From: Eretmocerus hayati
Taxonomy: Eukaryota; Arthropoda; Insecta; Hymenoptera; Aphelinidae
DNA length: 64,000 nucleotides
Direction of reading: 5' to 3'
Assembly: GCA_029851415.1 (NCBI GenBank)
Contig: CM056742.1
Span: 15,541,736 to 15,605,735, forward strand
In this document: positions 11,220 through 35,958 of the stretch, in pieces
Position numbering within the stretch: position 1 is the stretch's first letter
Layout of the letters: each line of letters begins with the position of its first letter
Made by a program: the position numbers and the translations under genes
Notes under the pieces: model-generated
What the model was told of the DNA's origin: nothing
What the model saw: only the letters and a program-made list of their open reading frames with translations
The model's database searches: none

Positions 11220-12797
11220 ATGCTCGACAATATCGGGAAAATGTACGAGAGGATGGTGCTCAACAGGGTGGAAAAAGCCTACGAAGAAGGCGGTGGGCTA
11301 TCACCAATGCAGTTCGGGTTTCGGAAGGGACGGAGCACTGTGCACGCGATCGAGGCGGTCCAAGAACGGGTTCAAGCGTCGGTAGGGAACCCATACCAAG
11401 GAAGAGGAGGATTCTGTGCCATCATTGCGTTGGACATAAAGAACGCATTCAACTGCGCGAGCTGGGAGCGAGTCTATCAATCCCAAGCAGGTAAAGTGCC
11501 CCCCTATCTATTAGCCGTCACGAGTGACTACCTGCGGAACAGGACCCTCGTGTACGACACCGACGAGGGACAAGAGATTCGGGTACTGTCCGCCGGAATC
11601 GGACAGGGATCGGTCTCCGGGCCGTTCAACTGGAACACCCAGTATGACAGCTTACTGTCTATCGAACTGCCAGAAGGAGTGATAATAGTGGCTTTCGCGG
11701 ACGACGCGGGACTCATAGTATGGGCTGACAACGAGGAACTCTTGGGTAGACGCGCGAACGAAGCGCTGGCCCGAGTCTACGAGTGGATGATTAGCAGGCT
11801 TCTGGAGCTCGCTGTCAAGAAGTGCGAAGCAATCGTGGTCACAAGGCGTAGGAAGTTTGACTTACCCCGGTTTTATATCAACGGGCAAGAGATTCCACGG
11901 AAGACAGAGCTGAAATACCTCGGTGTATGGCTCGACGACAAGTGGTCGTTCAAGAAGCACATCCAGAAAGCCGCCCAGAAGGCGAGCAGGGTCGGTGCGG
12001 CGCTCCAGCGGCTTATGCCGAATATCGGAGGACCCAAGGAAAAGAGGCGCGCACTTCTCAACACCGTCACTACCTCCATCATGCTGTACGGTCCACCCGT
12101 GTGGGGGAAGAGAGTAGAGAAGACCATCATCGAGAAGAGAATGGGGCCTGTCCACCGAAGAGCGGCCCTGAGGAGTATCCGTGCCTACCGCACTGTGTCA
12201 GGAGATGCGGCTTACGTATTGGCGAGTACTCCGCCCATCCACTTGCTCGTCGCGGAGCGAGTGAGGATCTGGGACCGCCAAAAAGTGATCGGAGCCGAAC
12301 GAGTACTCACTCCGACGATGAAGGAGATCATCCGCGACAACGAAAAGGAAACCACCCTTGAGCATTGGCAAACTGAGTGGGATTCGCCATTTGCAAACGG
12401 CAGATGGACGCACCGGCTGATCCGTGACGTAGCCAAGTGGGCGGAACGCACCCACGGAGAGATGGACTACTGGACGACGCAGGCACTGAGCGATCATGGT
12501 TGCTTCGGTTCTTATCTGACCAGGTTCAAGAAGAGGACGACCCCAGCATGTCAGTCATGCGGGGACGAATGGGATGACGCCGAACATGCCCTGTTCAAGT
12601 GCAGCGACACCCGGAGAGAGCGCGCCGAGCTGGATGAATGGCTGGGTGCTCAACTAACACCTGAGAATCTCGTCCCGTACTTGCTCCGCAACCAGGAGAC
12701 ATGGGATAGACTCACCGGATACATCAAGCTGGTGATGACCCGCAAAGAGGAGAAAGAGAGGGAAGTAAGGCGCCTCGAAACAGGCGAATTACAGTGA
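11220..12797 (+). CDS. R1-clade LINE reverse transcriptase, N-terminally truncated (525 codons)
   Basis: This is the C-terminal part of a non-LTR retrotransposon polyprotein, which copies element RNA at the nicked chromosome. The recognisable frame extends upstream of the ATG to 11184 (QRPLSMLDNIGK), where an in-frame TGA precedes it. In order: FGFRKGRSTVHAIEAV (about 34-49), ALDIKNAFNCASW (about 71-83), GIGQGSVSGPFNWN (about 126-139), the catalytic FADDAGLIVW (about 159-168), LKYLGVWLD (about 231-239), and near the C-terminus a CQSCGDEWDDAEHALFKC zinc-knuckle-like motif. That order, and the C-terminal LTPENLVPYLL, are typical of R1/TRAS-type LINEs. The first residue of the usual [YF]ADD box is F. 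The apurinic endonuclease half is absent, so it cannot move by itself, but 525 intact codons suggest a young insertion. It is clearly more GC-rich than its surroundings. Confidence 0.9.
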   Translation: MLDNIGKMYERMVLNRVEKAYEEGGGLSPMQFGFRKGRSTVHAIEAVQERVQASVGNPYQGRGGFCAIIALDIKNAFNCASWERVYQSQAGKVPPYLLAVTSDYLRNRTLVYDTDEGQEIRVLSAGIGQGSVSGPFNWNTQYDSLLSIELPEGVIIVAFADDAGLIVWADNEELLGRRANEALARVYEWMISRLLELAVKKCEAIVVTRRRKFDLPRFYINGQEIPRKTELKYLGVWLDDKWSFKKHIQKAAQKASRVGAALQRLMPNIGGPKEKRRALLNTVTTSIMLYGPPVWGKRVEKTIIEKRMGPVHRRAALRSIRAYRTVSGDAAYVLASTPPIHLLVAERVRIWDRQKVIGAERVLTPTMKEIIRDNEKETTLEHWQTEWDSPFANGRWTHRLIRDVAKWAERTHGEMDYWTTQALSDHGCFGSYLTRFKKRTTPACQSCGDEWDDAEHALFKCSDTRRERAELDEWLGAQLTPENLVPYLLRNQETWDRLTGYIKLVMTRKEEKEREVRRLETGELQ

Positions 12798-17811: not shown

Positions 17812-19237
17812 ACACGTGTTTGGGAATCGCAATCGCAGACTCCATTCGGCTACCTACGTCAGTCGTCAGGTGGCGCCAAGAGCCTCCCACTACGCAGAGT
17901 TCTACTGTGCCATCTCAGTGATTTGTTTTGGTTCTGCAAGTTTGAAGCCCACTCACAAGTTCAGAATCGTGTTTCTGCTACAATTTTGTGTGTCTTGAAC
18001 TGGAAGTGTTAGTGTTTTTCATAAGTACTCATATCTTCTAGGATGCAAGCGCAGGGAATTGAGTTTAAGGACGATCCTGAGGCTCCTCCCTGGTTCAACC
18101 GTTTTATGCGTAGGTTTGATGAGCAGAACAGAGAAAATTATAAGAAAGTCGAAATACTTGTGACGCGGTTGAATGACTTAGAGAAATCAATTCGTATTTC
18201 TCAAAATCAACTCCATGCAGAATTCACTGATGTCCAGTCTCAAGTTAACAGTCTAGCTCGAAATTTGCTTATCGTTGACACGCCTGGAATTCGTATCGCT
18301 GGCATTCCTGATGAACTCAAATCTGAACCTGAACAAGCAGTCTCTAGAGTTTTAGAATCGATCGGAGTGAAAGAATGCGTCGCTCAAGTGAGTGAAATTT
18401 CTCAATGGGCTCCGCATAAAAGTGTGGCTAATTCCGCAGCAACACGCAACTCGATTTCACATACAAAATCTTGCTCTACTCATACTTTGAAAATCAAATT
18501 ATCCTCGACTCTTACGCGAGACAAGATTCTTTCTCGTGTTCCTAAACTCCGAAACATGACTGCGAATTAAATATTTGAAGCTGGTGGAAATGAAAGAGTA
18601 TATGTGTCTTCGCTCTGGCCGAAACCTGTGTATGAATTGCTCCGTGCTGCGTCTCAAAAGGCTAAAGATCTAAAGTATTTGCATCCAACTGTCTGCAACA
18701 ATATCGTATGTATGCGCTCCCAGAAGAATTCGGCTCTCATCCCTGTATACTCCCAAGGTGATCTCGATCGCCTCTCACCAATTATTTCGTGAATCAAGAT
18801 AGCTTCTGCTGTAGACATCCAATACACATTGTTTTTTTTCTCTTTTTCCAACAACTTCTAGATAATTTCCTCTTTTCCACTCGTAATGGAGTACTTCTCT
18901 TTCTTTTATCTGTGTAACTATACTAAGTCATAAGGCTGTATATTTCACAAGAATTTCCACTTTTCCTCGCTAAGCTATACTTCATATGCAATTCTTGTAC
19001 TTGACAAATCTTTAGATAATCCATCAATACTATTGTGAGTTCAAGTCTCGTTTATTCGTATCTCATTACGCATATACGTCCAGTACCTCTGTAATGACGT
19101 AATCCTTTGGAATTTTTGATATAATACCTCATTATTTACCTGAATATGTAAGCTATTGCTGTAAACATCTATAACAGGGCTAAATAGGGTCCCACCCCAA
19201 AGCCCCAATAAACAAAAATCAATCAATCAATCAATCT
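17812..19237 (+). mobile_element. ORF1-only retroposon with ATCA-repeat tail
   Basis: A single ORF1-type reading frame (18043-18792) is followed directly by a 3' region ending in AATAAA (19208-19213) and four to five ATCA repeats (19219-19237), the kind of simple-repeat tail left by several LINE clades. No reverse transcriptase is present. The 5' boundary is uncertain; a C/G-richer leader begins near 17800. The structure parallels half-LINE (HAL1-like) elements of mammals, by analogy only. Confidence 0.6.
18043..18792 (+). pseudogene. LINE ORF1-like protein with one in-frame stop
   Basis: I read one frame of 249 codons interrupted by a single TAA at 18568-18570. N-terminal residues about 20-85 are a likely coiled coil (RFMRRFDEQNRENYKKVEIL and on to QSQVNSLARN), as in LINE ORF1 trimerisation regions. 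The middle has IRIAGIPDEL, like the start of the ORF1 RNA-binding fold. The C-terminal part after the stop (VYVSSLWPKPVYELLRAA, then KDLKYLHPTV, then SQGDLDRL) resembles the Baculo_FP-type domain found at the end of many insect LINE ORF1 proteins. Such proteins bind element RNA and chaperone reverse transcription. The stop falls between the two conserved blocks, so any translated product would lack the last domain. Family assignment rests on visual resemblance. Confidence 0.6.
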
Positions 19238-22334: not shown

Positions 22335-23583
22335 TCAGTTTTGTTCAAAATTTCGAATAAGCTGAGTAATATTTCGTGATACACATAAAGTGTCTACACG
22401 CGGATTTTCACACTCGTAGGATAAAACTCCAGAAAAATTGGATAGACATATTAAACAACAAGAATCTTGAAATTTGACCTTAGCGATTGCTGTAATAGAA
22501 GTATTAGTATCAGCATCAGAAACATTTCTGCCACTGATATATTGAGTGGATTGGGCGGTGAAAAGCCTACGTCTCGATGGTCAGGCATCGGGGTAAACTT
22601 GACTGAACTTACTTTTAAGATTTTCTAAGATATCTAGATAAACCACTGACGAGTCCGACGACTCAGTCGTATGGTTATAAAAGATACCGCGATTTTCTAT
22701 CATATGGATATATCGATCGAAAAAAGTCTTCGATCCTCCAACATGCCCATCAGCTAATTCCAAATGTTCCAAATGATTTTCGCAATCTGATATGATTTCT
22801 CTGCATTTACCGTTCATAGTGAGTAAATAATCGATGAGAGTTTTCGTCGTTCTGAACAGGTCCTCCAATTCCAATTCGTGATGCTTTTTTGATTTTTGTG
22901 CCTGTTCCCACCTACCTCTGTCGCCACCAATTGCGATAACGGAAACTTGTAACACTGGTGAAGCCTTTGCGATGACATTCTTTTGTTCATTTATCAAGTC
23001 TTCCTCTCTGGCGCTGATTGAGTCTCTTGTCGTTATAATAGCAACGATAAGGTGAAATATTGACTTGAGAACTTGTTTCTCCAACACATCAATAACCTTC
23101 ATCGTAAGATTTTGACTATCTTGAATGTTCTTATGAATATTTACAAGGGTTTTGGATACGATACCTTTGCGTGCTTCATATATGCTATTGATGCCCTCGA
23201 AATCGTATTTTATACTTTCGGCTGAGGAATCCACGTCTGTTACAATAACTTTTACTAGCAAAGATGCTTGTTTGATATACTCTTCGGCATGGCTTATCTC
23301 ATTAAATAATGCTCTCTGAATAAAATTATGACTCGGTACTCGTGCCAAAAACATATGCATCCTTGAACAGCGGAATCAAGATTTTTCTATTTCGCATTTT
23401 GAATTCAAAGATTTTTCCATAAGTTGTGAGGAATCTTATATACTCCCCAGCGAATGAGGCAGGTGCACTGACCGCTGCCATTTCCAGTACCGCGTTTGAT
23501 TCCTTACTCCCCCAGAGTAATACTAAACACCAAAATGCGCTCCAGAAGACGGATAACCGCATGATGAACAAAAAAATCAACAA
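22335..23583 (-). CDS. Secreted cysteine-containing protein of unknown family, two exons, one frameshift
   Basis: Translation starts at the ATG ending at 23583 with a signal peptide (MLIFLFIMRLSVFWSAFWCL plus VLLWGSKESNA). The first frame runs to 23326; the next begins just after, in the +1 frame, and continues to 22613 with mainly helical sequence. The overlap is under 50 bases and contains GTTTTTGG. Removing one T joins KDAYV to LARVPSHNFIQ. A canonical intron follows, AAAA|GTAAGT to TTCTATTACAG (22612-22490, 123 nt) with CTAAT upstream. Exon 22489-22335 encodes a Cys-rich tail (DSCCLICLS, YECENP, TLCVS) ending FEQN. With the frame corrected the total is 1125 nt, 374 residues, consistent with a real gene. 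I do not recognise the family. The frame stays open 40 codons beyond the terminal TGA. Function is not inferable beyond probable secretion. Confidence 0.6.
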
Positions 23584-24519: not shown

Positions 24520-24836
24520 AAGGACCCCGCTCCGAGAGATAGGATTTTGGGTTTGGGTGAATTTTGTCGGGGAAAAAATATGTTGTAGAGCGGAAAATTC
24601 TGAACAAAATGTTCAATGGGCTCGAGGACGGAAAATGGCTAGTTTTTCCAGGATTAATTGAATAAATATAGATGAATGGCAGGTTATGAGGTTATCTAGA
24701 ACAACAATAAAAGCTTGTCTACGGCGTTCGAATTTGGATAATTCGAGATGTACAATTTGAATTTGATGTAGCTCAAGAGTCTTTTTCTTGTAATAGGAAC
24801 ATTTTATCTCAAACCTTCGATGAAAAAAGCAAATGA
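24520..24836 (+). mobile_element. Solo end of the giant foldback family
   Basis: AAGGACCCCGCTCCGAGAGA followed by TAGGATTTTGG, then TGGGCTCGAGGACGGAAAAT and GGTTATGAGGTTATCTAGA, reproduce the outer 320 bp of the 8372 element in the same order. No partner arm is found nearby. The copy ends exactly where a hairpin begins. Confidence 0.75.
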
Positions 24837-25109
24837 ACATTGACGCCATTCTAATTATTTATCCCAAATAGTTGTTTTTTGCAATGGCCGTAAAAATTTT
24901 CCAAGTGCACTAAAGTCGTCGCAAGAAATCAGACAGCTTGCTGGGACCTTCAACTACAAGATGCAATCATTAAACTGGTCACTTTGTTACACAGGTCCCA
25001 GCAAGCTGTCTGATTATTAGCGACTACTTATTTAGTGCACTTGGAAAATTTTTACGGTTATTGCAAAAAACAACTATTTGGGATAAACAATTAGAATAGC
25101 GTCAATGTT
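24837..25109. mobile_element. 273-bp hairpin element, arms about 110 bp
   Basis: AACATTGACGCCATTCTAAT at the left is mirrored by ATTAGAATAGCGTCAATGTT at the right, and the inner CAGACAGCTTGCTGGGACCT (about 24929) by AGGTCCCAGCAAGCTGTCTG. It is apparently inserted into the foldback end at 24520. Confidence 0.75.
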
Positions 25110-25965
25110 TATTGACCGATTGCTCTGATTTTTTTTAATATAGTACCCTGTGAAGGCTAAATTTTCCAGGAAGTGCACATCGATCCATTGGCTTTCCTTG
25201 AAATGAAAAATAAAGCAAATTTTTGATATATTCTAGCTTTGTTGCTAATTATCTCGAATTAAGTAAAAGTTTGACACATGATTTTTTTCAGAAATTCAGA
25301 GAATTTCATTGCCTACAACATGGTACCATAAGGAACCATCCAAATATTATAACAGCTCCCCGGGATGCGAAATAATGTTAAAGAAATACAAAACTCTCCA
25401 CTATTCTGTTGTTGTAATTTTTTCCACACCCCTGGAGTTGTTCCATTTGATGGGGGGTTGTTCACTAGGGTATTCCGCACCCAAAAAAAAAAAATAAAAC
25501 CATTCTTCAGCAGTCATGTCGAAAACGGATAGATTCTGAGCTAGAATTACTGGCCTAATGTTTTGCTTCAGAAACTCTTGCCGTGTTTTGGTTAGCCTCC
25601 TATTGTGAGCGAAGTGAGCTTGAGACGTACTCTGTTGAAATGAATTAGTCAGCCAATCTGTCAATTTTTCAAGCTCAAATTAGGAAGATCCAGATTCGTA
25701 CTGATGACAATAAATAATGCCATCTCGAAGTACGTGGGAAGACCTTCAAAGATCAATGATGAAAGGCATGCCCAACTATCTGAAGATCAAAGGTTAAAAA
25801 AAGTAGAGATAACAGCAAGATTTAGATGCTGCAACGGGTGGAGAGCAGTAAGATACTGGGAAAACCAAAGAGTTGAGAATATGCCGGGTATGCAGGTGGG
25901 GGGAAGAAACGTGGCAACACATAATAAATTGGTTAAAAACGCGTTTTAGACATCGCTTTGACTGG
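25110..25965. other. Gene-free flank of the OTU transposon
   Basis: Small open frames only; a short A run near 25481-25496. Nothing assignable. Confidence 0.4.
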
Positions 25966-26686
25966 TACAGTGAAACTTGTCTAAGTTGGGCACTCTCGGT
26001 TTCGGAAAAATCTGCCCAACTTAGACAAGTGCCCAGCATACAGAAATTAGGACTCAGAACCATTTTTTCGATCCAAGGAGGTCAATTTTCTATGAAATTT
26101 TGAATGTCTTGGATGAAATACGTTATTCACTGATGATCATGTAAATACATTAGTTCGGAATAGTCATAAAGTATCCTCTTTTATCAAAGAACATACACGG
26201 ACAATACAGTAATGAAGAAATAGGAAGACAGATGCATTTAATTCAAATCGGAAACTTGGTACATGTCGATTACTCCATTCATGAGCAAGGCAACTACCGA
26301 TTCTTGACTGCTCCATACTGGATATTTTTTTGTAAATCTTTGATCCATGGATGCATTATGATTAAGTTTGCCATCATTGATGATTCATTGTGTGACGGTG
26401 GATACGCTATCAACTTTGCTACAATTTCTTCAATATCGATTGACCCTGATCTTACAGTAAAATCATGATTTATTTGGATGATTGACTCGGTTGACAATTA
26501 ATGATGCTGATAATCAATCAATAACCACGACTTCTTATTTATCAAACTCTGTCGCTTATTTGTGAACTCATAATCGAGATGATCAGGACGAGGATACGGT
26601 ATCATATCTCGAGCTTCGAAGTAAGTGCCCAAAATACACAGTCCTCATGTTATTATGTTCGACGAAAGGCCAGAATGCGCCCAACT

Positions 26687-27676
26687 TACTATCGGTTTAA
26701 AAATTATAGGTCCCTGAATGCTGCAGGTATCCTAGACTTCTAGAAAATTATTTAATTAATCTCACCTAACCAGGGTGGTAGAGTATCTATCTGCGGACAG
26801 AGTAAGCTTTGATCAGACGAGATCGGATGATATGCAACATTACAGCAACTGATTATATGTAGAAAAGTGCGGAAATTTGGAGGATTTTCCAACAACCGCT
26901 CCTAGAAAGCACCGAATCTCGATGAATAATGATATTATAACCTATCAAAAAATAAGGTGGTTAGAGGAACATTTGAGGATGACGCTCGTTTAAGAAATTT
27001 TGGAAAATGTTGATAACATCCGGAGTTATCGAATTTCTTCCGAAAAACGACGATCTCTGGATCCATGATATGTACGGATTTGGTTCAAATTCGACAAATC
27101 AGAGAAAAAATGTGTCGCCTGTTTGATCGATGAGGGATTGGAGTTTAATTAATATGTTCATGGGAAATTTTATTTAAAAAATTGGAAAATCAGGGCAAGA
27201 TAAGACGATCTCTTCCATAAAACGAAGTGACCGGGAAACCGCGAAGGGACAGAAGGCTGTAAAGGGTGGTAAATAATATTTTTCACTTAATGGCTTTATT
27301 GGTCTACTCCGCGGAGGACTTGGTTGCCGAGACAGCCGCGTCTTTTCATACCTGGATGGTAATGAGAAGGAGGCGATCTGGCGGATTAGCTCGGTTCCTG
27401 CCTTTCTGCCTTCTTTCGGTCTTCTACACCTGGAATACAGCACGCTTCATTCTCTCGTCAGGTGAACACCGATACGATCAATGCATCAGCCATTGTCTTG
27501 TATACTGCCAAAAGTCATCAACATACCATTCAAAGGCTTTGACTCGACTGTCATTATCTTGGAATATATCGATATACTCACGTTTGCACTCGTAAATCGT
27601 TGGCTATTCAAAGCATTGCTATATAGCATTCCACAATGGTTGCAAACTCATTTCGTTGGGCGCATGAGTCCTGTCC
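26687..27676. repeat. Left 990-bp internal inverted repeat
   Basis: It runs from TACTATCGGTTTAAAAATTA to GTCCTGTCC and is reproduced inverted at 30930-31919 with equal length and very few substitutions in the parts I compared. Open frames in it are mirrored in the partner and are not treated as genes. Confidence 0.9.
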
Positions 27677-27997
27677 CGTCTAACTTGGGGACGCATCATT
27701 CATAGCGTCAAGCAGTTGAAATCTAAGCTGCGAACCCGAGTGCAAACCCAAGTGCAAACCCCTCCATCAGCAGTCTCTGCCTCGGCACCGAGATTGCGCT
27801 TCTTATATCTTTAGCGCTAAGGTATGGCCTCGTCAGTTACGAACGATTTCGCAAGCAGTTCACAAGTGCCCTTGGTTTCGTCGATGTGAGCCATCATGCA
27901 ACTGTCCATCATCGCAACAGAATAGTTCCAAAATTAGGAGGTTGATTCAGTGATAATTGATATTTCAAAATGTTCGCTCTCTTCTGATGTAATCAAG

Positions 27998-29986
27998 ATG
28001 AATTCTAGACCCGTGATTATCAATCGACAACAGTTCCATCCAATAGACTGTGGTGGGAGAGGAGCTTGTTTGTTTAAGTGCTTATGTCCAAATGTGAGTA
28101 ATACTGATCATTATCGCACCAGGCGTTCCATCGTCAACCATGTGATCATCAATTGGGCTAGGTACAAGCTTTGGGTGAACCTTGTTCTTCAGATCAAGAA
28201 CCCTGAAGACTATCGTCGAGTCATGAGCATGTCAAAAACGTATGGTTCTGAAATTGAAGTTCGGGCTGCTAGTGAACTGTACAGCGTGGATATTTCTCTT
28301 GTTAGGAGGTTGAAAAACAGAGAAGATTTTGTCGTCGACTTCAGTTCGGGAGATAATTCGATTCCTCAACGGGATCGCATCTACCTTCTTTTCACCGGTA
28401 TGGAGGAGTCAAATGACCTGGATGGACATTATCAGATTCTTCAACGGTTGAGCCATAATCGTCAAGAAAATTCGGAAGTTCAGGATGTCAGAGTCGGTGA
28501 GGGTCACAGTCAACATATCATTGACAGTGCGGTATATGAAAGTGATGGCGATAATTCAGGACCAGATGCTGTACCTTCTGACAAGAAGAGGAAAGTGTTC
28601 ACCAAGGATTTCAAAGAAAAGATCGTTTCCACCCGAATGACTCTCGAGGGCAGTGACGAACGTGTTCGGAAGGTGGTTGAACTGACAGCAAACTGTCTAC
28701 AAATTTCAAAAACAAGTGTCAAACGAGTGTCGAGAGAGTTTAGAAATAATGGTGGTTATGTTGAGGCACCAAAAAATCATCTTGCTGGTCGAAAAGCTGT
28801 TCAAATCGACCCTTTCTTTCAGAGTGCCATACGCCGAAGCATGTTTGATGCTTACTCAAGAAAAGAGTACCCAACAGCCGAAAATATCTTGCAAACGATG
28901 TTAGACTCTTTCCCAGATTTTCCAGATCTATCTGCATATCAGATTAGGAAATGTATGAAAAGTATGGGTTTTCGATACGGTAAATTCGTAAAGAAGCCTA
29001 TCCTGATGGAGAGTCCATCGATGGTAGCGAAACGAATGAATTACCTCATGCTAAAGAAGCTTTTGAAAGAACAGGGGTATACATTCTATTACACGGATGA
29101 AAGTTGGTGTGGAGCCAACCACGTGAAAAAATATGGCTGGGTTCAACTTATCGGTAATGATGACTTTATCGATAACTTTGACCAATATCTTAATTGTGTC
29201 CAGCAAGTCAATGGTGTACGAGGCGGATTCTGTTCGCCATCAGGGGCAGGTAAGAGAGTCATCATCCTGCATATTGGCAGCGAAAATGGTTTCTTGGTGG
29301 GAGGTTTGGACTGCTTCATAGGTGATAAATCATCGCAAGATTATCACCAAGAAATGAATGCTGAACATTTCATTGAATGGTTTAAGAGAATACTCGCCAT
29401 CTTGCCTGCAAAATCTGCAATCATCATTGACCAAGCTCCTTACCATACCATGATTGATCCAAATTTTAGAAATCCGACCACTCGATGGAAAAAACATGAG
29501 ATAATTGAATGGATGGTTCGAAGAGAAATTCCTCTGCCAAACCAAGTTCAAGACTTTGGTAGTTTGCTGAAAGTAGACCTTTTGGAAATCAGCAAGCCAT
29601 ACCACTTCGAGAAGCGATACCTGCTCGACACTTTAGCTAAAGAAGCACGCGGGGATGACGTAAAGCTACTTTGGCTACCTGTCGCACATTGTGAGCTCAA
29701 CCCAATCGAGCTTATTTGGGCCAATTTGAAGAATGAGGTTGCCAAAAGGAATAAAACTTTCAAAGTGAAGGACGTCCACGAGTTGTGCCTTGATATTATG
29801 GAAAAAATGCCGAACAGTCTGTGGCGTAAATGTGTCGATCACACAAATAAGTTGGAGGAGTTTTACAGAGGAAAAGAGTCAACTCTTGCCGGACTAATTG
29901 GTCCGGTTATTTTCAATACCGGGGATGATAGCAGTGACGAAGAAGACGACAATGGAGTTGATGATGTTAGAGGGAGTCAAACGTGA
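27998..29986 (+). CDS. OTU-domain / Tc1-mariner-like transposase fusion (662 aa)
   Basis: The protein joins an ovarian-tumour (OTU) cysteine protease domain to a DDE transposase. Residues about 10-150 are OTU-like: IDCGGRGACLFKCL places the catalytic Cys at 24 and LDGHYQIL the catalytic His at 144. OTU proteins usually cleave ubiquitin chains; the role here is unknown. A basic SDKKRKVF (195-201) looks like a nuclear signal. A helix-turn-helix follows (about 203-260). The DDE domain has YYTDESW (D367), IIIDQAPYH (D478) and CELNPIELIW (E571), with 92 residues between the second D and the E, much longer than the usual 34-41. The tail is acidic (DDSSDEEDD). I chose the first ATG; an in-frame GTG lies 48 bases upstream. 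A preceding TTGATTCAG could be a splice acceptor, so a 5' exon is possible. No stop or frameshift. Confidence 0.85.
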   Translation: MNSRPVIINRQQFHPIDCGGRGACLFKCLCPNVSNTDHYRTRRSIVNHVIINWARYKLWVNLVLQIKNPEDYRRVMSMSKTYGSEIEVRAASELYSVDISLVRRLKNREDFVVDFSSGDNSIPQRDRIYLLFTGMEESNDLDGHYQILQRLSHNRQENSEVQDVRVGEGHSQHIIDSAVYESDGDNSGPDAVPSDKKRKVFTKDFKEKIVSTRMTLEGSDERVRKVVELTANCLQISKTSVKRVSREFRNNGGYVEAPKNHLAGRKAVQIDPFFQSAIRRSMFDAYSRKEYPTAENILQTMLDSFPDFPDLSAYQIRKCMKSMGFRYGKFVKKPILMESPSMVAKRMNYLMLKKLLKEQGYTFYYTDESWCGANHVKKYGWVQLIGNDDFIDNFDQYLNCVQQVNGVRGGFCSPSGAGKRVIILHIGSENGFLVGGLDCFIGDKSSQDYHQEMNAEHFIEWFKRILAILPAKSAIIIDQAPYHTMIDPNFRNPTTRWKKHEIIEWMVRREIPLPNQVQDFGSLLKVDLLEISKPYHFEKRYLLDTLAKEARGDDVKLLWLPVAHCELNPIELIWANLKNEVAKRNKTFKVKDVHELCLDIMEKMPNSLWRKCVDHTNKLEEFYRGKESTLAGLIGPVIFNTGDDSSDEEDDNGVDDVRGSQT

Positions 29987-30929
29987 GATCTGATCGGGCG
30001 GCTGGTACGGTGTGGGACAATGTCTGCCCAAATCATCATCAGTACAATGATTACGATATCTTGGAGGTTTACTCCTCTGTTAGCAACGATGTACTTCTTG
30101 AAACCAGCGAATAATGGTACAATATTTCAACGCCAGGATAATGTTTCCATCAACCCTTTCCCCAATTACCCATATTCCCTTTGCCCATCCTATCCCGATG
30201 GAAGGAGACTGTCACCTTCTCGTGGTTTCCATTGAGTGATATCAGTTTGCACAATGAACCATACAGATTGCTTGCAAGAAACCTAATCGTTTTACAAACT
30301 GATATCAGCTAAGAACAGTCGATCAATCATACTACTGTAAGAAAATTATTGCTCCATCTTAACAAGTTTTGGGCGACGAAGCAAACTCCCTTTCATTTTG
30401 CCATACTTGATCTTTGCCGATTCGTAAGGATTCAAAAACTATTTGTAATAGCATTCCACTGTCATGATTGAATTTTTTGGAACAAATATTGACCCAAGAA
30501 GAACTTCACATCAATTTTGGCGTTTTTGGAAAGATGTAGAAGTTAAGTCCGTGGTCGGGATGGAATCTCGAAAAACCAGCGGATCGTTAGTTGAAAATAT
30601 TGTCCCAATTAAATAAGTCTGCATCACTCTGGACTCACGATGATTAAGAGAGTATGATTGGATCTCGAGGGGTAATCTATATTTTATTCAAGAATTCGAT
30701 GAATTTACGATAACTCGATGATCTTGCGTAGCAGTCATCAATTCAAGGTATTCATCAAGATTCGCTTGATCGTCCGCGGCAGTACGGAGCTACCCAAAAT
30801 TAGATCTGACTGAGCAAGTATTCGTGTTGACAACCCGTACATGCGCTTGGGGTGAGAAGCTATTATTTGGATTACCGATCATCCTCCCTCTGCAAACATG
30901 AACACATCGATATTTATTCTAAGATTCAA

Positions 30930-31919
30930 GGACAAGACTCATGCGCCCAACGAAATGAGTTTGCAACCATTGTGGAATGCTATTTAGCAATGCTTTGAAT
31001 AGCCAACGATTTATGAGTGCAAACGTGAGCATATCGATATATTCCAAGATAATGACAGTCGAGTCAAAGCCTTTGAATGGTATGTTGATGACTTTTGGCA
31101 GTATACAAGACAATGGCTGATGCATTGATCGTATCGGTGTTCACCTGACGAGAGAATGAAGCGTGCTGTATTCCAGGTGTAGAAGACCGAAAGAAGGCAG
31201 AAAGGCAGGAACCGAGCTAATCCGCCAGATCGCCTCCTTCTCATTACCATCCAGGTATGAAAAGACGCGGCTGTCTCGGCAACCAAGTCCTCCGCGGAGT
31301 AGACCAATAAAGCCATTAAGTGAAAAATATTATTTACCACCCTTTACAGCCTTCTGTCCCTTCGCGGTTTCCCGGTCACTTCGTTTTATGGAAGAGATCG
31401 TCTTATCTTGCCCTGATTTTCCAATTTTTTAAATAAAATTTCCCATGAACATATTAATTAAACTCCAATCCCTCATCGATCAAACAGGCGACACATTTTT
31501 TCTCTGATTTGTCGAATTTGAACCAAATCCGTACATATCATGGATCCAGAGATCGTCGTTTTTCGGAAGAAATTCGATAACTCCGGATGTTATCAACATT
31601 TTCCAAAATTTCTTAAACGAGCGTCATCCTCAAATGTTCCTCTAACCACCTTATTTTTTGATAGGTTATAATATCATTATTCATCGAGATTCGGTGCTTT
31701 CTAGGAGCGGTTGTTGGAAAATCCTCCAAATTTCCGCACTTTTCTACATATAATCAGTTGCTGTAATGTTGCATATCATCCGATCTCGTCTGATCAAAGC
31801 TTACTCTGTCCGCAGATAGATACTCTACCACCCTGGTTAGGTGAGATTAATTAAATAATTTTCTAGAAGTCTAGGATACCTGCAGCATTCAGGGACCTAT
31901 AATTTTTAAACCGATAGTA
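30930..31919. repeat. Right 990-bp internal inverted repeat
   Basis: Partner of 26687-27676. A visible difference is one codon in the mirrored 109-codon frame (31011-31340 against 27266-27595, C for Y near the end). Confidence 0.9.
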
Positions 31920-32065
31920 GACAGGTGCCCAACATACAGAGTGCCCAGTGTATAGAACAAAATCCCCATAAGAGCTGATGTAATTATGAGCGTTCCGCGG
32001 AAAAGTGCCCAAGTTAGGCAGGTGCCCAATTTATAGAGGTGCCCAACTTGACAAGTTCCACTGTA

Positions 32066-34087: not shown

Positions 34088-35958
34088 TCATTTGCGCTCA
34101 GAATTCTCTTGTGCCCGTGTTTGAGCCTCTAGCAACAGGTTCGTCAATTCCGCATTCATAAAAAATGGTTTTTCAGTTGAACCATTGTGTAGATACAAAT
34201 CTTCTAAAGCACACAAAATGAATGCTTCTACACTTGTGCTCAGTAAATTTAAAACAGCTCGTGCAAGTATGGCGGAGCTTACTACTGCCATAATTGATGC
34301 GTGTAATATCTCTTTCTGCGGTATTCCATTCATTCTACAAATTCCGTATGTAACTGCGACGGATGTTCCAACAACAAACCCTGTTCCAGCGTGAAAGACT
34401 GCCGAAGTCACCTGAATAAAAATTTGTACTTCACCGAATAAGCTTCAATGCATGAGATTCACATGAGGGCAAAAATGTTAATAAATAACATACCTGATCC
34501 ACAGTGAAAACAATTTCCTTATTATTTCGGTTGAGTATGGAATAAACGTGACTGGCTGATTGGCAGAAATTCTTGCCGTACAAAGCGCATATCATGTATG
34601 TATTGTTACCAATTATCCTGGTTAATTCTTCTAAGCCTGCAAATGCCACTCTGAATAATGGGCAAAAATATCGTTCTATGAAGTTGCTAAAGTCACATGT
34701 CTTTCCTTTAGTCAAAATTTTCATGATAGCTCCTATGAGCTCATTCAATGCCATAAGGAAAGACCCAAGAGCTGCAGTTCCTAGATGATACCTAAAATAA
34801 AAAAGATGATGTTGACAGTATTGGACTTGAATTCAAGATGCCATTGATCTTATTTTCCACAACAAATTTACCTGGCAACAATTTTTGCTGCCCGGGTCAC
34901 AGTGTTTCTTGGGATGAATTTTTTTCTGTACTCCAATACCAACACGTGTAAGTTCCATGTAGTATCATCCGTAGAGAGCCACCCACGGAAAAAGCTAACC
35001 AGAAGTATCCAAAGAAATTAACCAAAGAAAGGACTAATCGTAGGGAAAAAGTTTCATCACTTGATAAAGTTGGTATTCTGTATAAGCAGATGAATACCGA
35101 TACTGAGAAAGCTAATACAATCGAATTCAAGATGAAGTGAACTACTGCAATGATGACGAGTGACGGAAACGCCATGGTAGCTCTGAAACAAGACAAAATT
35201 CGTAAGTTTCGGAGATATGGTGAATCTCATGTCTATATCGAAACACTACTGATAGACTCACTTGATTGATTCCCTGATCACCTCGCAAGCTAAAGGAATT
35301 TCTTTTCGATTCGACTTTAAAATGAATAAACAAAAGAAGAACATGAACATATAGTACCAAGCGAATGACCACATCCGAACATTTTCACCATTTGTATCAT
35401 CTTCCATGAGGCATTTAACCAATGCCACGAAGAGTGATATCAAGAATACAGGAATGGCACTATATATAACAAATTTCGTACACCATTTAAGCAGCATCAA
35501 GTATAAAATTGATATAATCCCTGAAAGTACGACACACCCTGCAACGATATGCCTAAAATGATGATAAATTACTTGATCAGTCCGAACCAGATAGCTGGCT
35601 AGAATTAATAAAAAATTGAGCATACCAGGGCCAAGAGTGAGCAAGATAGCCGGATGCAAGATCCGATATGAAAGTTGAATCCCAATCCTTGTGGGAAGGC
35701 ATTGATATTTTCTTCTCATTTTGGGATCCATCATTGTTCTGTGCCATTGACGTAGAATATGCTGAAAAATTTAATGTGATTTTTTATCAATATTCCCATA
35801 CGCCGGAATTCAGTTTTTCGCGAGGAACTTACCAAATGTCGCTATCATCATCCACAATAGTAGAAAATAGCGTAATATACTCAACCATTGCTTGTCGGTG
35901 GAAGAATGTACCACGTTGAAAGGATCCAGATGCGAATCAGTTTTTTGGATTTCTTTTT
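34088..35958 (-). CDS. SLC44 / choline transporter-like protein, C-terminal six exons
   Basis: SLC44 (CTL) proteins are multi-pass membrane carriers for choline and ethanolamine. Minus-strand exons: 35958-35833 (TM1, LRYFLLLWMMIATF), 35761-35626, 35552-35262 (three TMs), 35182-34872 (two TMs), 34791-34494, 34411-34088. All junctions have GT-AG and agree in phase, giving for example SWPW|HIVAG, ESIK|ATMAFPS, IVAR|YHLGTA and TVDQ|VTSAVF. Family hallmarks are CEVIRESIK before a TM pair, ARYHLGTAALGSFLMAL, FIERYFCPLF, MICALYGKNFCQSA, and CALEDLYLHNGSTEKPFFM near the C-terminus. About 495 residues are covered; the start exon or exons lie upstream and were not found. The loop after TM1 is about 45 residues, far shorter than usual (150-200). 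Exon 35182-34872 lacks one base: A7 where A8 would keep the frame (STEK to FIPRNTV). Confidence 0.85.
34915..34932 (-). other. Homopolymer frameshift in the SLC44 exon
   Basis: Plus strand reads GATGAATTTTTTTCTGTAC. Upstream frame WYWSTEK and downstream frame FIPRNTVTRAAKIVAR join only if one more T (A on the coding strand) is present. Exon length 311 instead of 312 gives the same answer independently. Confidence 0.7.

Follow-up and report, generated by a model that had tools for sequence, protein, structure and literature searches.

Can a transposase of the Tc1/mariner group, a class of enzymes regarded as needing little from the host, carry its own tool for handling ubiquitin? The question is raised by a stretch of 64,000 nucleotides from the wasp Eretmocerus hayati (hereafter the window; positions 15541736-15605735 of contig C2 in a 692,130,109-bp assembly), in which a single gene joins an OTU domain to a transposase of the aspartate-aspartate-glutamate (DDE) type. 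Known OTU enzymes hydrolyse ubiquitin or ubiquitin-like conjugates, and we know of no ubiquitin-handling part described in any Tc1/mariner transposase. The fusion is real, conserved and unusual, and it belongs to an element of the IS630-Tc1-mariner group, an autonomous cut-and-paste transposon in which a long spacer separates the second catalytic aspartate from the glutamate. Our results suggest that a mariner-like transposon acquired a tool against the host's protein-tagging system.

An earlier note on this DNA had proposed an intact frame of 662 codons in which an OTU-type Cys box (GACLF, with C24) and His box (DGHYQIL, with H144) are followed by a basic KKRKV and by a D367/D478/E571 triad. 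Translation bears this out: the gene is a single open frame without internal stop, GACLF begins at residue 22 and DGHYQIL at residue 142 of its 662-residue protein (P0001), and the other motifs are found at the residues proposed. The parts of the gene, in window coordinates, are as follows.

27998-29986, plus strand: transposase gene, single open frame of 662 codons (translation)
27998-28447, plus strand: OTU domain, residues 1-150 (Cys24 codon 28067-28069, His144 codon 28427-28429)
28583-28597, plus strand: KKRKV, likely nuclear localisation signal, residues 196-200 (motif position)
28604-28963, plus strand: two three-helix segments, predicted DNA-binding region (predicted secondary structure)
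29015-29896, plus strand: DDE nuclease, residues 340-633 (Pfam DDE_3; Mos1 and Sleeping Beauty structures)
29096-29098, 29429-29431 and 29708-29710, plus strand: codons of the DDE triad, D367, D478 and E571 (motif positions)

The nuclease is of the IS630-Tc1-mariner type. P0001 matches DDE_3 at 41.3 bits (expectation value (E) 1.7e-10, Pfam cut-off 28.6), Mos1 and Sleeping Beauty are the top structural matches of its DDE part, and the element combines the DDE nuclease type, TA target-site duplication and terminal inverted repeats by which members of this group are recognised. An IS630 model gives 52.8 bits against a curated cut-off of 100, and the Pfam scan, taken to E 5, lists DDE_3 and no integrase family. 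The triad is spaced by 110 residues from D367 to D478 and by 92 residues from D478 to E571; the latter spacing could be measured in 22 of the 29 members of alignment A2, where it ranges from 91 to 95. Ahead of the nuclease, KKRKV is a likely nuclear localisation signal, and secondary structure prediction gives three-helix segments at residues 203-250 and 272-322 with GRK between them at 264-266, to be set beside the two helix-turn-helix motifs with an intervening GRPR-like motif that define a paired-type DNA-binding domain. The Pfam scan gave no helix-turn-helix profile match in P0001, and HTH_Tnp_Tc3_2 is matched weakly by 3 of 29 relatives (best E 0.0014).

For residues 1-150, structure prediction and structure comparison give an OTU fold, and with DDE_3 over its cut-off the proposed fusion of an OTU domain to a Tc1/mariner-like transposase holds. 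A linker predicted to be disordered (residues 153-197, predicted local distance difference test (pLDDT) under 50) separates the two halves. The lack of an OTU fold in residues 1-150, or a Cys and His that are not conserved, had been named at the outset as grounds for abandoning the OTU assignment; the fold is predicted, and both residues are invariant in 6/6 aligned OTU-bearing sequences. Among E. hayati loci covering the positions, the catalytic Cys is kept in 13 of 14 and the His in 11 of 12, one and the same decayed copy carrying Ser and Asn instead. A false profile match was rejected on the basis of the predicted structure and of two intact paralogues, P0030 and P0031, which score over the Pfam cut-off at 24.7 and 24.9 bits. 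OTUD3, OTUD1, OTUD5/DUBA and nairoviral vOTU have the same fold, the same domain boundaries and the same succession of Cys box and His box; the wasp domain differs from them in sequence (11-22% identity in the structure comparison) and in the lack of a third catalytic acid. The earlier statement that both halves retain their catalytic residues is right for Cys24, His144 and the D/D/E triad but not for this third acid, which is absent, with Gln at His+2.

The fusion is not confined to one sequence. Protein database searches returned 28 distinct relatives; P0003 (8 member sequences), P0004 and P0005 combine OTU and transposase at full length, with 40-43% identity over 94-97% of the query, and P0002, P0018, P0022 and P0028 are partial E. 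hayati models in which the OTU is present. A chance fusion was rejected, the OTU-transposase combination being present in six diverged sequences. In comparisons of P0001, P0030 and P0031 with one another, non-synonymous divergence (dN) amounts to 0.33-0.37 for the nuclease and, close to this, to 0.37-0.45 for the OTU; segment 201-330 reaches 0.52-0.54 and the linker 0.74-0.79. With roughly half the dN of the linker, the OTU is constrained to much the same degree as the nuclease; synonymous divergence (dS) is saturated in most of these comparisons, and ratios are inexact. When a tree is built from the transposase part, the rows with an OTU fall in one 13-row group (support 100/99) that is nested among OTU-less relatives and also contains P0006 and P0007, both without an OTU. 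Two changes of OTU presence are needed if every OTU-less row is taken as true absence, and one in 4% of 200 bootstrap trees; one is enough after eight rows judged to be cut at the 5' end are dropped. The OTU region of P0030 as query returned two E. hayati models only and not P0003-P0005. No relatives were found in viral contigs, either with profile A1 (31 stretches) or with profile A4 (9 stretches), and the PHROGs comparison gave no useful match.

The gene lies within a transposon whose ends and target site can be placed as follows.

26689-31917, plus strand: whole transposon, 5,229 bp, TA duplications excluded (outer ends of the inverted repeats, right end of the C1 copy, empty related site)
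26687-26688, no strand: left TA target-site duplication (TA before 13 of 15 family termini; joined flanks match 26014-26044)
31918-31919, no strand: right TA target-site duplication (same basis)
26689-27676, plus strand: left terminal inverted repeat, beginning CTATCGGTTT (arm comparison)
30930-31917, minus strand: right terminal inverted repeat (arm comparison)
26014-26044, plus strand: short related site without the element, with a single TA (similar to the joined flanks across their junction)

The inverted arms (26687-27676 and 30930-31919), to which the earlier note makes no reference, show 4 mismatches over 990 nt (99.6% identity), the gene at 27998-29986 is the sole long gene between them, and the element reads TA-CTATCGGTTT...AAACCGATAG-TA. 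Joined with one TA, its flanks resemble the single-TA site at 26014-26044, in an alignment that spans the junction (31 bp, 93.5% identity, E 7.7e-8 within the window); most likely, then, the site held one TA before insertion and this TA was duplicated by the element. The pattern CTATC[GC]GTT has 16 occurrences in the window and the 18 merged E. hayati loci taken together, and TA precedes 13 of the 15 that were retained, the one left out lying in the window away from any element end. Together with the one-TA related site, this sets the element proper at 26689-31917. The joined flanks also match 32007-32045, more weakly than 26014-26044, and GTGCCCAACTTA-like motifs recur on both sides of the element, at 25980-26050 and 31919-32060.

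The element has been active recently. A genome search with P0001 returned at least 76 matches. Contig C1 carries a copy with an uninterrupted frame and 99.7% identity over 5,137 bp, whose right end is the same and whose flank differs. A third copy, on C2, is broken, shows 96-97% identity and counts among the 18 merged loci. Intact fused frames of other subfamilies stand at two of these 18 loci, P0030 (C1, 686 amino acids) and P0031 (C2, 733 amino acids), the element of P0031 having inverted repeats of 1,042 nt at 98.75%. The public E. hayati models of this family (P0002, P0018, P0022 and P0028) are too short, and that of P0002 passes out of the transposase and into the C1 copy's right inverted repeat. 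P0018 and P0028 were considered as genuine short proteins and rejected, since the DNA of the matching loci holds full fused frames.

What would the OTU domain do in such an element? We put the probability that it is a deubiquitinase-type enzyme forming part of the transposase at about 0.6. From what is known of the family, the helical segments would bind the inverted repeats, and the DDE part would excise the element and insert it at TA. The OTU domain would act within the transposase as a ubiquitin hydrolase, with catalysis on Cys24 and His144 and perhaps Gln146 as third residue; Cys24 and His144 could act as a dyad, or Gln146 could replace the Asn of papain-like enzymes. Brought to the inverted repeats, it would strip ubiquitin from the transposase itself or, alternatively, from proteins at the transposon ends such as chromatin, repair or silencing factors, and the transposase complex would thereby escape clearance and persist until integration or repair is complete. 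Such shielding of the transposase or its complexes from ubiquitin-dependent removal, which the earlier note had put forward, is plausible as a hypothesis.

Several observations weigh against this role in an autonomous element. OTU proteases usually take their third catalytic residue from an Asp at Cys-3 or an Asp/Asn at His+2. All six aligned OTU sequences have other residues in place of the Asp at Cys-3 and of the acid at His+2, and none of the 14 E. hayati transposon loci read has Asp at Cys-3; transposon OTUs have R, K, E, G or Q there, and at His+2 the E. hayati loci read have Gln (11 of 12) or Arg (1 of 12), Arg being also the residue of P0005. The OTU of P0001 itself reaches 15.4 bits (E 0.027), under the Pfam cut-off of 23.3. 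Some relatives in the same larger family, P0006, P0007 and others, lack the OTU, so transposition in general does not depend on it. At its left end, the C1 copy is missing the outermost 97 bp. At C3:128834256, repeats of 1,094 nt at 98.7% enclose a match limited to transposase residues 229-655, and internally deleted forms may therefore have moved too. Finally, the case for the wasp element is built on sequence and predicted structure.

The missing acid would suit a binding role, in which the OTU would be a ubiquitin-binding module with a crippled site, tethering the transposase to ubiquitinated chromatin or repair foci and steering the timing or place of its action. At both usual places the acid is lost in every transposon OTU read and fold and constraint remain, and OTU-like sequences of the same genome retain the acids: at the 14 E. 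hayati loci that match P0001 in the OTU only, Cys-3 is Asp in 13 and Asn in one, and His+2 is Asp in all 14. A pure binder would need neither Cys nor His, however, and these two are the residues that are invariant in the alignment and kept in nearly all E. hayati loci; we consider this role unlikely. A protease with another target, acting in self-processing of the transposase or on another ubiquitin-like conjugate, would suit the disordered linker between OTU and transposase, but that linker is poorly conserved (29-41% identity; no search for a cleavage motif was made) and OTU enzymes are known to act on ubiquitin or ubiquitin-like conjugates, which makes such a target improbable in our view.

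The relatives without an OTU, and the C3 locus with its well-preserved repeats and its match in the transposase part only, would agree with a passenger domain, captured by chance and kept without function. Against this stand the substitution rates, the OTU dN lying close to the nuclease value and at roughly half the linker value, and the presence of the fusion in six diverged sequences, and we hold a functionless passenger to be quite improbable. An intact frame under constraint might also mark a gene domesticated by the wasp after loss of mobility, but the TA duplication, the long and almost identical inverted repeats, the existence of another near-identical copy at a separate site and the numerous decayed copies leave this with a very slim chance; a domesticated gene was rejected on the mobile structure, that is, on the inverted repeats, the C1 copy and the TA duplication.

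How does the deubiquitinase-type transposase proposed here compare with known systems? OTU-transposase fusions are already known from Ginger1, which carries an OTU or Ulp1 domain C-terminal to the transposase and for which a role of these domains in transposition or repair was proposed (PMC2836005), the sole example of an OTU fused to a DDE transposase among the papers listed. The wasp protein shares this union of DDE transposase and OTU but has the OTU at its N terminus (residues 1-150), and the Ginger1 transposase is Gypsy-integrase-like and of another superfamily; the comparison was made without Ginger1 OTU sequences. No OTU or deubiquitinase in a mariner-type element was found in the open literature, with subscription papers, Repbase and preprints outside the search, and in a term search of the accessible text of the 2026 E. 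hayati genome paper mariner, Helitron and OTU do not occur (PMC13116730). This suggests that the fusion is new for the mariner group as far as searched.

Among IS630-type elements, Sailor (DD82E) has spacers from DD78E to DD111E, those above 90 being reported in arthropods among others (PMC8533490). The earlier note's hint at Sailor agrees with the 92-residue spacer, which lies inside this range, and with the IS630-type DDE nuclease, and very long inverted repeats are described in one fungal Sailor (PMC8533490). It agrees less well with the ends, which are TA and CT in the wasp element, as against the TATA duplication and GT/CC termini that are predominant or usual, not universal, in Sailor (PMC8533490); the wasp element also has an OTU domain, a word absent from the accessible text of that paper. 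Because of these ends, and because the sole Sailor-like comparator in the tree is a stand-in (L049, DD83E, 30% identity), we call the element Sailor-like and do not file it as Sailor. L049 is the one relative found with profile A4 in nine stretches of genome contigs; its DD83E transposase, Sailor-like in spacing, is encoded by a contig of 3,270 bp (NZ_CAHJWD020000450.1) that is recorded as belonging to a Bathymodiolus gill symbiont and is perhaps mussel host DNA.

The OTU domain itself leads to Helitrons. OTU-bearing Helitrons and Helentrons are known (PMC4067079, PMC6431247, PMC9741609), and the E. hayati locus L032 (1886-6808, within C2:167784001-167791000) holds a frame of 1,641 codons with Helitron_like_N (180 bits), PIF1 (189 bits) and an N-terminal OTU (37.9 bits). 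A profile of the transposon OTUs scores 70.9 bits on L032, 72.8-84.2 bits on four related OTU loci of the genome and 41.5 bits on the best solved OTU. Helitron identity is established for L032 only. L043 shares 80% identity with that kind, and a Helitron nature is assumed for L039, L046 and L048, which show 41-59% identity to the others. By sequence, Helitron-type OTUs of the same genome are the nearest relatives among those compared (24-33% identity), in a comparison that left out named Helitron, Ginger1 and host OTUs and in which the link consists of scores and identity. The domain is thus related and, in L032, likewise N-terminal, but Helitrons and Helentrons have a rolling-circle Rep/helicase and no DDE transposase, and at the E. 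hayati loci read the OTU has Asp at Cys-3 in 13 of 14 and at His+2 in 14 of 14. The P0001 genome search also gave about 30 OTU-only matches, several in frames of 1,000-1,641 codons; a sizeable OTU-bearing Helitron family in the E. hayati genome is suggested.

More tentatively, and at somewhat less than even odds, the OTU may have entered no fewer than three kinds of transposon that are not related to each other (Helitron, Ginger1 and an IS630-Tc1-mariner lineage), the mariner-type version working on a reduced Cys-His(-Gln) site. If so, the removal of ubiquitin signals at transposon ends would be a general problem that transposons have solved repeatedly, and OTU modules would have been exchanged between Helitrons and mariner-like elements cohabiting insect genomes. 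The conserved, constrained fusion makes the proposal of ubiquitin control of transposition (PMC2836005) testable by one point mutant, within a compact one-gene element whose ends are defined. The locus is in addition a source of a naturally occurring OTU whose active site is unusual, and an instance of a domain common to Helitrons of the same genome.

Elsewhere in the window, frames at 18043-18570 (plus strand), 22581-23360 (minus strand) and 35258-35734 (minus strand), of 175, 259 and 158 codons, have no Pfam match at E up to 0.01. A 525-codon frame at 11220-12797 (plus strand) has a reverse transcriptase domain (RVT_1, 65.8 bits) and is probably a piece of a retrotransposon without long terminal repeats (non-LTR). 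Just upstream of the element, at 24832-25113, lie two nested inverted repeats, one of 83 nt with 94% identity and one of 37 nt with 89%, which may represent a small element able to form a hairpin.
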